A program made the translations under genes and the position numbers. DNA of 64,000 bases from Methylococcaceae bacterium (GTDB taxonomy: Bacteria; Pseudomonadota; Gammaproteobacteria; Methylococcales; Methylomonadaceae), in the NCBI GenBank assembly GCA_006844585.1, contig SPJM01000344.1, forward strand, positions 1 through 64,000. The letters are read 5' to 3'. A model generated the notes under the pieces. The model did no database searches and was not told the DNA's origin. It saw only the letters and a list, made by a program, of their open reading frames with translations. This document shows, piece by piece, positions 4,172 to 53,313 of this stretch. Position 1 is the first letter of the stretch; each line of letters starts with the position of its first letter.

Positions 4172-4765
4172 ATGTTAGCTAAAAAAAACAGTCAAAATGA
4201 AACCATCAGTGTAGATGCCTATTTAGAAAGCGAATCAGTCGCTGAAATCAAACATGAATTGATTGATGGTAAAATCTACGCAATGGCGGGAGCCAGCAAG
4301 AATCATCAACGCATCGCCGGCAATTTTTATGCTGGGTTAAGAAATCATCTTGTTAACCAACCTTGTGAAGCTTTTGGGTCGGATATAAAAGTTAAAGTTG
4401 GCGATAATTTCTTTTATCCGGACGCAATGGTAGTTTGCAACGACGATGAAGAGAATGATTATTACACTGATTCACCCGTCATTATTATTGAGGTGTTATC
4501 CAAATCAACTCGAAAAAACGACAAAACCAGCAAATTAATTGCTTACCTGAATATCCCAAGTCTTCAAGAATACGTGATGATTGAACAAGATTTTGTAGGC
4601 ATTGAAATACTCAGAAAAAAAGATCATTGGTCTCCAAGGAATTATTTTTTAGGCGATGAGGTCAACTTTGAATCCATTAATTTAACGCTGAAAGTTGAAG
4701 AGATTTATCAACGGGTAAACAACGAAGATATGCTGGAATGGTTAGCATCAAAACAGCCGATTTAA
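4172..4765 (+). CDS. Uma2 family (DUF820) restriction-endonuclease-fold protein
   Basis: A 197-residue protein of the Uma2/DUF820 type, which has a PD-(D/E)XK nuclease-like fold but no firmly known function. Seen in the sequence: an N-terminal SVDAYLESESVAEIKHELIDGKIYAMAGAS segment (start of this motif at about residue 14), the FYPDAMVVCNDDEENDYYTDSPVIIIEV core with candidate catalytic Asp and Glu, and a following KSTRKNDKTSKLIAYL motif typical of the family. It begins 38 bases after tatC and overlaps the stop of the convergent SGNH gene by four bases. Members are most common in cyanobacteria and scattered elsewhere, suggesting transfer. Confidence 0.85.
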   Translation: MLAKKNSQNETISVDAYLESESVAEIKHELIDGKIYAMAGASKNHQRIAGNFYAGLRNHLVNQPCEAFGSDIKVKVGDNFFYPDAMVVCNDDEENDYYTDSPVIIIEVLSKSTRKNDKTSKLIAYLNIPSLQEYVMIEQDFVGIEILRKKDHWSPRNYFLGDEVNFESINLTLKVEEIYQRVNNEDMLEWLASKQPI

Positions 4766-5364
4766 ATGCCTCCTCTCTGTTTAAGCAATTCAGCAATGTT
4801 TTCAGCCATCACTCGATAACCTTCATCATTCGGATGCACCCTATCCGATTTCAAGTCCGAATCAGCCAAAATAGTCGGCAAAGTCTCTAAATCCGCGACG
4901 ACCTGCATTTCTTCTGCAATTTGCTGGTAAACAGGCGCGCTTTCCATCATCAATAATTTAGGTTTGGGTACGCCCACTATCATCACTTGCGATCCCTGCT
5001 CCCGCGCTAATTGAATCATTTGCCGCAAATTCTCGATGCTCTGCCGTTCAGGTACTTGTCGGAGTATATCATTGCCGCCATGGATCAATATTAACAAATC
5101 GGGCTGTTCCAATTCCAAAAGCTCGGGCAGGCGTTGTAAACCCCGGCTGCTGATTTCACCGGGAATGCCTTCGTTTATCACGGTCAAACCGGTTAATTCC
5201 TGTAAGATAGCCGGATAATCATTATCCTCCGTTGCTCCGGTTCCATAGGTTAAACTGTCGCCGAACGCTAAAATAACGGCATCTGCGGGTAATTTTTGCA
5301 ACTGCGGTTGATCCGAACCGCAGGCGGTTAAAAAACAACAAACTATTATAATTATTCGCATCAT
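4762..5364 (-). CDS. SGNH/GDSL esterase lipoprotein (TesA-like arylesterase)
   Basis: A lipid-anchored hydrolase of the TesA/arylesterase group. With the start at 5364 (or 5361, two ATGs in tandem) the N-terminus is a short hydrophobic signal ending in a lipobox LTAC, so it is probably a lipoprotein. The SGNH blocks are visible: FGDSLTYG (block I, nucleophile Ser), GGND (block III) and DRVHPNDEGY (block V, Asp and His), with a block II Gly in GIPGEISSRG. A TTG start further upstream at 5397 is not credible because the lipoprotein signal would be buried. The start region overlaps the start codon of folM on the other strand; neither gene has a clear ribosome-binding site. Confidence 0.88.
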   Translation of the reverse strand: MMRIIIIVCCFLTACGSDQPQLQKLPADAVILAFGDSLTYGTGATEDNDYPAILQELTGLTVINEGIPGEISSRGLQRLPELLELEQPDLLILIHGGNDILRQVPERQSIENLRQMIQLAREQGSQVMIVGVPKPKLLMMESAPVYQQIAEEMQVVADLETLPTILADSDLKSDRVHPNDEGYRVMAENIAELLKQRGGI

Positions 5365-6094
5365 GTCTAAAAACGTATTGATTACCGGCGCCGCCAAACG
5401 ATTAGGAGCGGCAAACGCCGTTATGTTACACCAACGGGGCTGTAATATTGTTTTGCACTATCATCATTCCGAACAGCAGGCGCTTGAACTGTGTCAACAA
5501 CTCAACCGCATCAGAGCTGATTCCGCCGTCCCTCTTCAAGCTGATCTGCTCGATTTAAAAGCGGTCAAGTCTTTGGCCGAATCCGCTATGCAGGCATGGG
5601 GGCATATCGATGTGTTGATTAATAATGCTTCAGGCTTTTACCCAACGCCCATCAACAAAGCCACGGAACAAGACTGGGAAAGCTTAGTGGGCGGTAATTT
5701 AAAAGCGCCTTTTTTTCTGGCTCAGGCGTTGCTGGAATCCTTACAACAACATCAAGGCTGCATTATCAATATGATAGATATTCATGCCGAACGCGGTTTG
5801 CCGGATCATCCCATTTACACAATCGCCAAAGCCGGCTTGGCGGCGATGACAAAAAGCCTGGCCAAAGATCTGGCGCCGGATATACGAGTCAACGGCATCG
5901 CCCCCGGCGCTATTTTATGGCCCGAACAATCTTTGCCGCCTCAACAACAAAACGCCTTAATCGAGCGCATCGCTTTAAAAAAGAAAGGCGATGCTTGCGA
6001 TATCAGCAATGCCGTTGAGTTTTTAATTTTTCATGCGGATTATATGACCGGGCAAATAATCACTGTCGATGGGGGGCGGACGCTTTATTGTTGA
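5363..6094 (+). CDS. folM: Pteridine reductase / dihydromonapterin reductase (FolM-type SDR)
   Basis: A 243-residue short-chain dehydrogenase that reduces dihydropterins. The nucleotide motif is TGAAKRLG, where the Arg in place of the usual Gly pattern marks the pteridine reductase subgroup with NADPH preference. NNASGFYPTP follows, and the catalytic YTIAK (Tyr and Lys) with DIHAERGLPDH upstream. The C-terminal part has RVNGIAPGAILWPE, again typical of this subgroup. The convergent neighbours are folK and folB, so this locus concerns pterin or folate metabolism. The ATG overlaps the divergent lipoprotein start by two bases. Confidence 0.9.
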   Translation: MSKNVLITGAAKRLGAANAVMLHQRGCNIVLHYHHSEQQALELCQQLNRIRADSAVPLQADLLDLKAVKSLAESAMQAWGHIDVLINNASGFYPTPINKATEQDWESLVGGNLKAPFFLAQALLESLQQHQGCIINMIDIHAERGLPDHPIYTIAKAGLAAMTKSLAKDLAPDIRVNGIAPGAILWPEQSLPPQQQNALIERIALKKKGDACDISNAVEFLIFHADYMTGQIITVDGGRTLYC

Positions 6095-6095
6095 T

Positions 6096-6115
6096 ATGAA
6101 TGTCATCGCATTCAT
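6096..6115. repeat. Small hairpin between folM and folK
   Basis: ATGAATG (6096-6102) and CATTCAT (6109-6115) form a perfect 7-bp stem with a 6-nt loop between two convergent genes. No T run follows, so terminator function is uncertain. Confidence 0.4.
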
Positions 6116-6133
6116 GTAGGGCTTACGACTGCT

Positions 6134-49076: not shown

Positions 49077-50066
49077 TTAAAACTTATCCAGATCATCCAG
49101 CGGACTCAACACGCCCTCGCCACCTTGCTTTAGGACATGCGTATAAATCATCGTCGTTTCTAAATCATTATGTCCCAACAATGATTGAATCGTTCTAATA
49201 TCCGTACCCCGTTGCAACAAATGCGTCGCAAAACTATGTCGAAAGGTATGCGCACTCACTTTTTTGACAATACCCGCTTTTTTCACCGCTTGCTTAATCG
49301 CCTTATTAACTACGGACGGGTCTATATGATGCCTGCGTTTAATCCCGCTGCGTGGATCAACAGATAACTTGCGACTGGGAAAAACATACTGCCAAGCCCA
49401 CTCCCGCTCAGCCTGTGGATATTTACGCGCCAGCGCATGAGGTAAATAGACAGAACCATAACCCGCCGCCAAATCCTTATCATGTATAGTTTTAACGCGC
49501 TGCAAATGATTCTCCAACAAAACGGCCACAGCCTCGGGTAACGGCGTTACCCGATCTTTATCGCCTTTACCACTACGCACGGTGACCTGTTTAAAACCAA
49601 AATCAATATCCTGCGCCCGCAAACGCACCGCCTCGCTAATACGCAGCCCGCAACCATACAATAATTTCACCAATAACTCAGGCGCGCTTTCCAACAAGGC
49701 CAGAACCTCTTTAACCTCCTCACGCGTTAACACCACGGGAATAGACTTTTCTTTTCGTGAACGCGTTGCCTGCACACCTTCCAGTGGTTTTTGCAAAACC
49801 TGTTTATACAAAAACACCAGCGCATTAAACGCTTGATTTTGCGTCGAAGTCGCCACATTCCCCTGCACAGCCAAATGCGTTAAAAAAGCCTCCACCTTTT
49901 GTTCAGGGTTAATCAGCAAAGTCTCCTTTGACTTGGCATGATGGAAACGCACATAGCGAGTTATCCAATCACAATACGCCCGTTCTGTATGAATGGAATA
50001 ATGTAATCGACGCAAAATTTCACGCGTTTGTTGCAGCAAATTTTGTTTAGGCGGGGTTGTTGACAT
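49077..50066 (-). CDS. intI: Integron integrase IntI
   Basis: A 329-residue tyrosine recombinase. The catalytic residues are visible: Arg in [18 protein letters not shown], His and Arg in [12 protein letters not shown], His in LLGHNDLET and Tyr in TMIYTHV. The segment [20 protein letters not shown], and RRHHID after it, are the extra IntI-specific region that separates integron integrases from XerC and XerD. The ATG at 50066 was preferred to the TTG at 50072. It is divergent from the FRG cassette, as expected for an integron, with an attI region between. No LexA box was recognised at its promoter. Confidence 0.93.
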
Positions 50067-50301
50067 AAGCAAAAAAAAGAATTATTCTTCGAGCTAGCTA
50101 TTGATAAACAGGATAATATCAATTATCAGGGCTATTCGACAGGATAAATTACATAGCAGGCAAACTTGCCTGATTTCACGGCCAATACTGTGGAATAGCA
50201 AGGCAAAAGTTCAGGATATTAATATCCTGTCAAAGTTGCCTGATTGTTCTGTCAATATCTAGAATATCAGGGCGAATTTGCCTGATAATAATAAGTTATG
50301 C
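50067..50301. other. attI-like region of the integron
   Basis: 235 bases between the integrase start and the cassette. They contain a perfect 18-base palindrome CAGGATATTAATATCCTG (50212-50229), a palindrome CAGGCAAACTTGCCTG (50157-50172), and three direct copies of TTGCCTGAT (50166-50174, 50236-50244, 50278-50286). The 3' end reads GTTATGC (50295-50301), a core-like sequence shared with the right end of the attC. I infer that the cassette joined here. Confidence 0.7.
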
Positions 50302-50318
50302 TTTCAAGAGGCAAGGCA

Positions 50319-51362
50319 ATGCATATAGGGGAAGTTAGTTTCGCAACTCTTTCGAGATGGATTGAAGAGCAAGGCTGCATTGGAAGGGTTAAACGTAAAT
50401 GGGGTTGGTGGCACAATCCTGACGGAACAAAAGGGCTCGGTCCAATTCACGGAACCAGATATTTATACCGTGGCCAAAATAGACGCTACTGGTCCTGCCC
50501 TCCTACTATTTCGCGCAATGTATACACGCGGGCACATTCATTAAACGATCTAGAGTCGATTGAGCAATACAAAATACTTGATTCACTGGTGCGCTCTGAT
50601 TGGTATTGCGAGATTATCAAATCTCACCCAGCATTTCGGTGGGCAAACAACGAAAATTTCTCAATAGACAGGATGAGTCTTGCGCAACACTATGAGTTGC
50701 CTACTGGATATATAGATTTGACGGAGTCAATTGAAGTTGCCTTGTTCTTTGCGTGCTGTACCTTTACAGAAGGGGAATGGACTCCAAAATCCAAGGGGAA
50801 AGGTATTCTATATCGCCTTGATTGGGTTGAGTCGCCAGACAACATAAGATCAAGGATAAAAGCAATAGGTTTTCAGCCATTTGCTAGACCGTATGCGCAA
50901 TGGGCTTGGACAGCGGAAATGATATTGGGCGAAGATTTCGAGGATATTCCTGGTGTAGAAGCGGTTCTTTTCGATCATAACGAAGCGCTTGGAGAGAGGT
51001 TGTTGGATATGTTCAATGGTGGAGAAGTACTTATGTGCGGAGATCCGGTTTTTGACTGGGCATCAAATATAAAACACTCTAACGAATTACCCAGATCTAA
51101 TGGACTTGCTATCGTCGATGATATTTCAAACGATCCAATGGCGCTGCTTCCAAATGATCCAGAACTGGTATTGCGTGAAATTGAAAAGGCCAATGACGTA
51201 TCGTTTGTCGACAATCCTTCGTTTAGAATAAGTAGGTCAGAGATAGAAATACTGCAAAAGGAATGGGACTCAAAAGAGGAAGAATTTCTTGATTCTCTTA
51301 TAAACGATACTCAAGTTCAGCTTGTAAGGACTCGCAAAACAAACAATGAAAATCAAGCATAA
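50319..51362 (+). CDS. FRG domain protein, integron cassette gene
   Basis: A 347-residue protein with an FRG domain: LYRGQNRRYWSCPPTISRN (about residues 49-67), then HYELPTGYIDLTESIEVALFFACC (about 124-147). FRG proteins occur in many phages and defence islands; function is not defined. The ATG at 50298 falls inside the core recombination site, and the second ATG at 50319 has AAGAGG upstream, so the latter was chosen. The C-terminal 120 residues hold a helical, acidic region (EKANDVSFVDNPSFRIS, LQKEWDSKEEEFLDSL). The intron begins directly past the stop codon, on the opposite strand. Confidence 0.8.
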   Translation: MHIGEVSFATLSRWIEEQGCIGRVKRKWGWWHNPDGTKGLGPIHGTRYLYRGQNRRYWSCPPTISRNVYTRAHSLNDLESIEQYKILDSLVRSDWYCEIIKSHPAFRWANNENFSIDRMSLAQHYELPTGYIDLTESIEVALFFACCTFTEGEWTPKSKGKGILYRLDWVESPDNIRSRIKAIGFQPFARPYAQWAWTAEMILGEDFEDIPGVEAVLFDHNEALGERLLDMFNGGEVLMCGDPVFDWASNIKHSNELPRSNGLAIVDDISNDPMALLPNDPELVLREIEKANDVSFVDNPSFRISRSEIEILQKEWDSKEEEFLDSLINDTQVQLVRTRKTNNENQA

Positions 51363-51991
51363 GGGGGATAGGAAGGGGTTTCTAACCCCTCCCTCCCACA
51401 CCACCCGGCATGCGGGTCCGCACCGGGCGGTTACCAAGAAAGCCGGACCGTAGTCGGACAAGTTAACCAAAGGCTAACTCTGAAAGTTTCAGATTCCATC
51501 ATCGCGCCTACCAACTCTTACGTGAACCGGTCGGCTCAAACTGAGAGATAGAGCATAATGGTAAACTTTCTTCCTTGGCTTCAGGCCTTCACTTCATCAA
51601 ATATGATTCCGCTACTATGCCGTCTGCTGACTTCTGCCCAATCACCTCATGCATTACTACATGAAGCGCTACCACCTGTGGTGGTCGCAAAGCCGGGCAG
51701 ATCTCCCCGGGTAAGAACATGATCTTTCCCTATACAACCGCTGCATTTACCATCCCCCAGAGATCTGGATGGGCTTCGTCATGTTGTGCTGACTCGCCCT
51801 GGGGTTCGGCCTTATATGCAATTTCTGTCCGTCGGCTCATAGGTTTGCACTTAGGCTTCTTTCAGACGGTCGGTCACCCTTCCGCCCTTGCCCTCGGCTA
51901 GTACTTTTTGAAGTTGCCAAATATGACCACTTCCCAGATAATGTACAGGGGACTTACACCCCATAAGATCATGCCCATGCCGGGCACACAC
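51363..51991 (-). mobile_element. ORF-less group II intron (attC-inserting IIC type)
   Basis: On the minus strand the element starts with a GTGTG-like 5' end before CCCGGCATGGG and ends with a domain V-like hairpin (arms around CCCGGTGCGG and CCGCATGCCGGG) and a domain VI stem (GGGAGGGAGGGG with CCCCTTCCTATCCCC). These are standard 3' elements of a group II intron. At 629 bases it is far shorter than an intron with a reverse transcriptase, and I see no such gene. It lies between a cassette and an attC, in the orientation opposite to the cassette, as IIC-attC introns do. Confidence 0.8.
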
Positions 51992-51993
51992 AA

Positions 51994-52077
51994 TGCCATA
52001 AACGCGGACGTCAAAAAGCTGCGCCGCTCGTACCTCACTCTGCAGCTTTTTGACGCCGGTTATGGCTGGCGTTATGC
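51994..52077 (+). other. attC-like recombination site
   Basis: A hairpin with 13-base perfect arms GTCAAAAAGCTGC (52010-52022) and GCAGCTTTTTGAC (52042-52054), flanked by GCCATAAACGC on the left and GGCGTTATGC on the right, which can pair with bulged bases in the manner of attC. The right core GTTATGC equals that in the attI region. Left core variation may result from the intron insertion. Confidence 0.75.
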
Positions 52078-52287
52078 GTTTCAAAACTCTCCTCAGCAGT
52101 CGCGTAAAAAAGGCGCTGCCTAATCGGAAACGAACTCATGTTTCTTTTCTTGGCAAGTCCACCCCTCATCCATTATTTGAAGGGTTGGGTTGGTGGTAAC
52201 AGGGCGGGTTTCGTTCAGCATTTTTCAGGAAACAGTGTTCAGCTTATCCAGGTCATCGGGTATTTGGAACCAATGGGGTCAACCAAT

Positions 52288-53090
52288 GGGGTCAGACTCG
52301 ATTGTTATCAATACTATCCTTATACTTCTGAGACCTCTTATCTCCGCCACGCGCTTTTGGTTGTACTTGTCTATTTATTAATGCCTCTATTTTATATTTA
52401 AACCGGTCATCTCCAAGCACCCATGCTTTATTTGTCGCATTCCGAATTTCTTCTAATGTTTGCTTTGGAATGTGATGATCAAATAATGCAAAATAATTAG
52501 CCTGACGTTGAGAAAAATCACGCCCCAAACTTTTATAGGTACCATGTGGCGTTAACAACTTATTCTCTTTTCCTAGAGCATTATAATGGAAACTCGACCA
52601 AGGATAGTCTCCTGGACTTTTAACCATTTTCGCACGCACTGGGTTTAATTCGATATATCGGCTACAGGTCAATAAATAGCTTTCACTATCAAGCAGTGTA
52701 GCTTTATAACGACCTTCCCATAACGTACCTGTTCGCTGATATTGAAAATTAAAATACTGCACATAATACCGACCTATGTACTGCATAACCTTGCTAATTC
52801 CATTTTCTGACGTGGGGGTCATCAATAAATGCACATGGTTGCTCATTAAAACATAAGCATGTAGTTCACAGTGATATTTGTTGCACCCATCATATAGTTT
52901 TTGTAAGTAGTAATGATAATCTTCTTCTGCTGCAAATATTATTTCACGATTATTACCTCGTTGAATAACATGTTGTGGTTGCCCAGGTATTACATAACGC
53001 GGAAGTCTAGCCATTGGATATAATTGTTATAGTGATTTCTATAATAAATGTAGGATACCACATTTTACCAATTCAATCGAGTCTGACCCC
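52288..53090 (-). mobile_element. RAYT transposase element with terminal inverted repeats
   Basis: GGGGTCAGACTCGATTG (52288-52304) is repeated in perfect inverted form at 53074-53090. Between them is one Y1-type transposase gene. The left repeat encodes the last codons and stop of the transposase. A direct repeat CCAATGGGGTCA occurs twice before the left end (52270-52281 and 52283-52294). Confidence 0.85.
52292..53014 (-). CDS. REP-associated tyrosine transposase (IS200-like)
   Basis: A 240-residue Y1 transposase of the RAYT group. The N-terminal MARLPRYVIPGQPQHVIQRGNNRE, the HUH-type metal motif HVHLL (about residue 61) and the region with the catalytic Tyr (MQYIGRYYVQYFNFQYQRTGTLWEGRYKAT) are intact, as is SRYIELNPVRAKMV. 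It cuts single-stranded DNA at REP-like hairpins. It is probably functional, as no frameshift is visible. It lies next to the integron and faces away from fusA2. Confidence 0.9.
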   Translation of the reverse strand: MARLPRYVIPGQPQHVIQRGNNREIIFAAEEDYHYYLQKLYDGCNKYHCELHAYVLMSNHVHLLMTPTSENGISKVMQYIGRYYVQYFNFQYQRTGTLWEGRYKATLLDSESYLLTCSRYIELNPVRAKMVKSPGDYPWSSFHYNALGKENKLLTPHGTYKSLGRDFSQRQANYFALFDHHIPKQTLEEIRNATNKAWVLGDDRFKYKIEALINRQVQPKARGGDKRSQKYKDSIDNNRV

Positions 53091-53313
53091 TTTGTAAGAT
53101 TATTGCTTAAACCAACATTTTTTCTGACTTTTCAAAAATATGAGTTACAATAGGAAATTTTTTAAAGCTTTTAGTTGGGCTTTAAAAGCGCAGCAAAATC
53201 ACGAAAAGGGCGCGGAACGAACGATTCTCGTTAGTTTATTGCCATTACATAGTTCTCTGCAAGCTTGCATGAGGTTTAAAACAGTTTTTTATGTCCATTT
53301 TTAGAGTACAAAC

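Follow-up and report, generated by a model that had tools for sequence, protein, structure and literature searches.

A structurally complete IIC-attC intron without a reverse transcriptase gene in a Methylococcaceae integron, probably of a non-autonomous lineage

The 64,000-nucleotide stretch of Methylococcaceae DNA analysed here (the window) carries, inserted in the attC site of an integron, a structurally complete group II intron of the IIC-attC type that is devoid of a protein gene. We consider it probable that this element belongs to a non-autonomous lineage of introns, which would have lost the gene of their reverse transcriptase (RT), kept the domain on which the RT probably docks and come to use an RT supplied in trans. 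An earlier note on this DNA had hesitated between an ORF-less intron needing a helper in trans and a dead remnant; the former is favoured by the intact domains, including domain V (D5), by the full pairing of the EBS1 and IBS1 target-recognition sequences, by widespread ORF-less relatives and by a covarying domain IV (D4). It is possible that the window copy itself is inactive or dead.

Anatomy of the intron and of its attC site

The intron occupies positions 51362..51989 of the minus strand (628 nt), its boundaries being set by Rfam matches and by alignment with relatives. The latter gives the junctions TTGT/GTGTGCCC...CCCCCT/TATGC, with a 5' exon ending in ...GGCATTGT and a 3' exon beginning with TATGC. 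The GTGTG start reported previously was thus retained, at 51989, and the ends of the element, formerly given as 51363-51991 (629 bases), were slightly shifted. Three Rfam models are matched over their full length and in the canonical order D1, D2-D3, D5-D6, all on the minus strand: the 3' part of domain I (group-II-D1D4-3, RF02001; 51716..51883, 134.1 bits, model positions 1-170), the domain II/III core (group-II-D1D4-1, RF01998; 51584..51668, 67.8 bits, model positions 1-84) and D5/D6 (Intron_gpII; 51363..51432, 43.5 bits, model positions 1-77). Domain V (51400..51431, minus strand) has a CGC triad and retains every pair, and domain VI (51362..51397, minus strand) forms a hairpin with a bulged A at 51369, in agreement with the domain V-like hairpin and domain VI perceived from the sequence beforehand. 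With regard to domain I, the window intron has the fifth highest score of all the matches obtained from 251 genomes of the order, indicating that the ribozyme core is not degraded. The D3-D5 pattern is matched once in the window and was absent from each of 100 shuffles, which excludes chance. The ordered domains I to VI and the catalytic hairpin of D5 identify the element as a group II intron, while its intact ribozyme, its lack of an ORF and its retained domain IVa place it in the ORF-less class.

No ORF of at least 90 aa overlaps the intron, confirming that it is a group II intron without a protein gene, and its six-frame peptides contain no convincing RT remnant; the sole match of the D4 peptides to RTs was gapped, with E=0.03, and was judged to be due to chance. 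The class C RT/maturase without En domain which known IIC-attC introns encode in D4 is therefore absent. When plasmid and E. coli collections were searched with blastn, no record was found to cover 80% of the intron.

The R'' box of an integron attC is interrupted by the insertion. A single-cassette integron lies next to this site and is composed of the integrase gene intI (49077..50072, minus strand; TIGR02249, 446 bits) and a cassette gene for an FRG-domain protein of 354 aa (50298..51362, plus strand; Pfam PF08867, 53.9 bits). The attC body lies at 51990..52077 on the plus strand and includes the R' box GTTATGC (52071-52077); the first five R'' bases are found across the intron at 51357-51361. 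When the flanks are joined, they form an R'' box GCATAAC complementary to R' and a perfect-ended attC, GCATAACAATGCC...GGCGTTATGC, which as single-stranded DNA folds into a long hairpin (z -5.8, equalled by none of 200 shuffles). The placement at an attC proposed earlier is thereby upheld. The accompanying proposal that splicing restores the attC on the opposite strand is valid for the bottom-strand RNA only; the DNA site remains split, and cassette excision through it would hence still be broken. The intron is located on the attC bottom strand, in the R'' box, at TTGT/T, and its IBS1 (TTGT, the 5' exon end; 51990..51993, minus strand) equals the target published for IIC-attC introns (PMC7923331), namely TTGT/T in the R'' box on the bottom strand, with the cassette gene in the opposite orientation. 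Strict R''/R' complementarity over all relatives (7/29 versus 3 by chance) proved too noisy a test and was replaced by the TTGT/T rule and by EBS1 pairing.

A gene for a REP-associated Y1 transposase (52292-53014, minus strand) is also present in this part of the window. Within 52284-53094, it lies between the arms of an inverted repeat of 21 nt, CAATGGGGTCAGACTCGATTG / CAATCGAGTCTGACCCCTTTG, of 95% complementarity, and a comparable motif is located close to an intron of another genome (G002, L037).

Conserved domain IV and recognition of the target

The non-coding domain IV (51432..51589, minus strand) is structured and conserved among ORF-less relatives. It includes a domain IVa-like arm (51502..51554, minus strand), with CCGACCGG at 51527-51534 and a GGCGC motif, homologous to the RT start and putative docking region of ORF-bearing introns. 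An alignment of 40 ORF-less attC introns through D3-D4-D5 yielded 41 consensus pairs with RNAalifold, 25 of them with compensatory changes. The covariation score was 0.460, against 0.178 +/- 0.008 for 500 shuffles and 0.07-0.12 for slid partners; as the structure was taken from the scored alignment, the contrast with the slid versions (in cells paired) is inflated, that with the shuffles less so. Most of the covariation resides in the basal helix (8/8 pairs) and in the CCGACCGG arm (6/7 pairs, plus a 3-bp tip), and the window intron retains 18/18 of the D4 pairs.

A covariance model built on the ORF-less D4 (R1) gives the window intron 71.2 bits, the latter being one of its training rows, and E=1.8e-13 in a search of its own genome. 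The model also recognises RT-bearing attC introns from outside its training set (L060 and L008, E~1e-11; L166, 3e-8; L007, 1e-5), where the match spans the ribosome-binding site, the start codon and the first codons of the RT. As judged from these alignments, the ORF-less D4 block is homologous to domain IVa of RT-bearing IIC-attC introns. By analogy with group IIA introns, in which DIVa is a critical region for binding of the intron-encoded protein (IEP) (PMC2882425), domain IVa is likely the RT-docking site in class C introns, and the overlap of the conserved D4 arm with the RT start in ORF-bearing introns points to RT binding.

The EBS1 of the window intron (ACAA; 51784..51787, minus strand) pairs with its IBS1 at 4/4 positions. 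Across 31 ORF-less attC introns the two elements covary, 110/124 cells being paired and 21 introns fully so, while none of 5000 shuffles reaches 110 (mean 81.7, maximum 101). Switched combinations were encountered in Thiorhodococcus (ACGA/TCGT), Glaciecola (CAAA/TTTG) and Endozoicomonas (CAAG/CTTG). The many insertions at TTGT/T with a covarying EBS1 point to retrohoming.

These characteristics outline a possible mobility cycle. The RT/maturase gene would have been lost and the domain IVa handle kept inside a short conserved domain IV; the intron would be transcribed on the integron bottom strand, and the RT/maturase of a related class C intron would bind domain IVa in trans. Splicing would proceed through recognition between EBS1 (ACAA) and IBS1 (TTGT), and the resulting RNP may then insert into single-stranded attC bottom strands.

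ORF-less relatives, potential helpers and origin of the lineage

The ORF-less nature described in the earlier note stands, with the correction that the element is one member of a lineage rather than an isolated oddity. A scan of 85,000 species genomes with a pattern in which 176-236 bases separate the D3 and D5 cores, a spacing too short for an RT, uncovered 54 further stretches, whose match lengths cluster near 222-239 nt (228 in the window). About 45 of these 54 loci are of the attC type, distributed among Gamma-, Beta- and Alphaproteobacteria, Cyanobacteria (Leptolyngbya PCC 6406 alone has three copies), Desulfobacterota and others; as several of the loci come from MAGs, single phylum labels need care. 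The closest kin of the window intron, from Methylococcales (L146) and Hyphomicrobiales (L139), are complete, ORF-less and located at attC-like sites. In the family of the window organism, another genome (G091) harbours a different complete ORF-less intron, and a further one (G013) has ORF-less copies inserted in two attC sites whose 3' flanks are unlike, one of the copies having a small D3 deletion. These two copies retain the first and last RT codons, suggesting a recent internal deletion followed by at least two insertions. The copies of G040 and G203, cut short by insertion elements or by the ends of contigs, were set aside. With no domain missing, no D5 pairing broken and ORF-less copies present elsewhere, none of the observations named in advance as able to overturn the initial interpretation was made.

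The nine remaining loci form a separate set of ORF-less introns of class C, which begin with GTGCGCCC and mostly lie directly after intrinsic terminators (L111, L122, L123, L124, L127, L129, L149 and L158). Their hosts include Azospirillum, Chlorobaculum and Chitinimonas, two copies occurring in one Chlorobaculum. Head-to-tail ORF-less introns, with domain VI of one adjoining domain I of the next, were observed in Rhabdochromatium marinum (L152, 6146-7124) and Allochromatium palmeri (L113, near 423-647). ORF-less attC-type introns were also noticed on two IMG/VR viral contigs (L205, 13647-13876; L029, 1395-2040), one as a pattern match and the other as a partial copy at the contig end.

The window intron is present as a single copy in its genome, and no intact RT of the right kind was found among the 376 contigs of the assembly. 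One related RT-bearing intron is cut by the start of its contig (C170), and its RT is split into two ORFs, as assembled, by a frameshift near 1137; a truncated RT fragment with a TAG stop (C228) and a short D6-like stretch (C286) were also detected. Considering the number of contigs and that both RT copies touch contig ends, further or intact copies may be unassembled. The nearest RT-bearing intron of the genus (L036 in G002) was evaluated as a simple parent, its first 296 nt being 86% shared, and was rejected since D2/D3 differ and the RT start is present.

The single copy and the absence of an intact helper RT from the assembly would fit with a remnant undergoing decay in its attC after loss of the ORF, and deletion remnants of this class of introns do exist, for example on a Citrobacter plasmid (L007, 3003-3580) and in G052 (L038). 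We nevertheless regard this explanation as unlikely, as true remnants are without EBS1 or D3 and contain pieces of RT coding sequence, whereas the window intron has all its domains, its full set of D4 pairs, a fully paired EBS1/IBS1 and exact boundaries, and its nearest relatives in other genomes carry the same ORF-less D4. The Citrobacter plasmid, pLNU-11, also has a full-length RT-bearing copy (4208-6130), and its internally deleted intron lies about 650 bp upstream of this copy; the deleted intron has kept the RT C-terminal codons and lost the EBS1 region.

The co-residence of ORF-less D4 and RT was evaluated in 320 evenly drawn Gammaproteobacteria, the genome of the window being excluded, with thresholds of >60 bits for the D4 model and at least 45% identity for an attC-type RT. 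The D4 was found in 5 genomes, the RT in 17 and both in 3, so that the RT is present in 3/5 D4-bearing genomes versus 14/315 of the others (Fisher p=0.0012), a result relying on small numbers, on an identity cut-off of our own choice and on the scoring of RT fragments as presence. A close class C RT, or a fragment of one, was identified in about half of 40 ORF-less host genomes, many of which are drafts; its absence from the other half speaks against the model of an RT acting in trans. It would rather suit an autonomous, self-splicing RNA without RT, whose D4 would be kept for ribozyme folding only and which would be spread by homologous recombination and cassette movement. A gammaproteobacterial genome (G370; L195, L204) that the ORF-less D4 model matches six times, and in which an attC-type RT is absent at E 1e-60, goes in the same direction, as does the ability of IIC introns to splice by hydrolysis (PMC7923331). 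Such autonomy seems very unlikely to us, given that the conserved D4 arm is the one overlapping the RT start in ORF-bearing introns, that RT and ORF-less D4 co-occur above expectation and that insertions at TTGT/T with a covarying EBS1 are numerous. The use of an RT in trans remains our preferred reading.

Two histories could account for the ORF-less introns as a group. In a tree of D1-D3 (+D5), ORF-less and ORF-bearing introns are mixed, with 12 label changes, at least 9 of them forced by supported branches, as would be expected if the ORF-less introns resulted from many independent ORF deletions and their D4 likeness only reflected parts that RT-bearing introns also retain. The G013 copies, with their N- and C-terminal codon remnants, represent one such recent and independent RT deletion. 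As a general history we find this doubtful, because ORF-less introns of different genera and classes share 72-90% ungapped identity over the 3' half of D4, against only 43-50% of matching columns with the nearest RT-bearing introns compared, several of which are siblings from the same genome. The simplest reading of these sequences would be a single old non-coding D4, combined with exchange of the ribozyme body between ORF-less introns and RT-bearing partners. On balance, a SINE-like non-autonomous IIC-attC lineage across several phyla, with its own RT-docking D4 and with D1-D3 repeatedly replaced or homogenised by the local RT-bearing partner, appears to us about as credible as not. In Photobacterium and Oceanospirillum, an ORF-less intron shares 97% and 95% identity, respectively, over D1-D3 with an RT-bearing intron of the same genome, their D4 being unlike; the pattern seen in such pairs (L114 and L162; L142 and L161) suggests recombination or template switching between introns.

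Relation to known introns and significance

IIC-attC introns (Quiroga 2008, Leon and Roy 2009, as cited in PMC7923331 and PMC4424553) and ORF-less introns are already known, and so, for IIB introns of Thermosynechococcus elongatus, is the mobilisation of ORF-less introns in trans. With S.ma.I2 and its relatives, the window intron shares its insertion site (TTGT/T in R'', on the bottom strand of the attC), its orientation opposite to that of the cassette gene, as well as a class C core, the CGC triad in D5 and the ACAA EBS1. It differs from them by its D4, a 150-nt structured non-coding region where these introns encode a class C RT of ~1.3 kb. The ORF-less TeI3 family of T. elongatus similarly lost its ORF and retained DIVa, has well-matched EBS/IBS at most sites and is moved by the RTs of other, related introns (PMC2882425); it is however of the IIB type, confined to one genome and endowed with readable ORF ends, whereas the present lineage is of the IIC-attC type, extends over several phyla and mostly lacks readable ORF ends in D4. 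Circularly permuted group II RNAs (PMC8637638) are also ORF-less ribozymes spread over bacteria, but their D5-D6 precede D1-D4, unlike the canonical order of the window intron; in the tandems mentioned above, D6 precedes D1 by juxtaposition only. An RT acting in trans has also been proposed for the ORF-less introns of phage genomes (PMC12350094), where the hosts differ and attC is unmentioned.

We found no description of an ORF-less IIC-attC lineage in the open-access literature. ORF-less introns have been called rare in bacteria, with the reservation that RT-based surveys could miss them (PMC4424553); that one strict pattern yields 54 loci indicates that such surveys miss a whole class. If these introns are moved in trans, they would constitute a bacterial counterpart of SINEs next to LINEs, and their natural covariation would make the RT-docking role of domain IVa testable. 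They would also be mobile elements that disrupt attC sites, with the potential to freeze integron cassettes.
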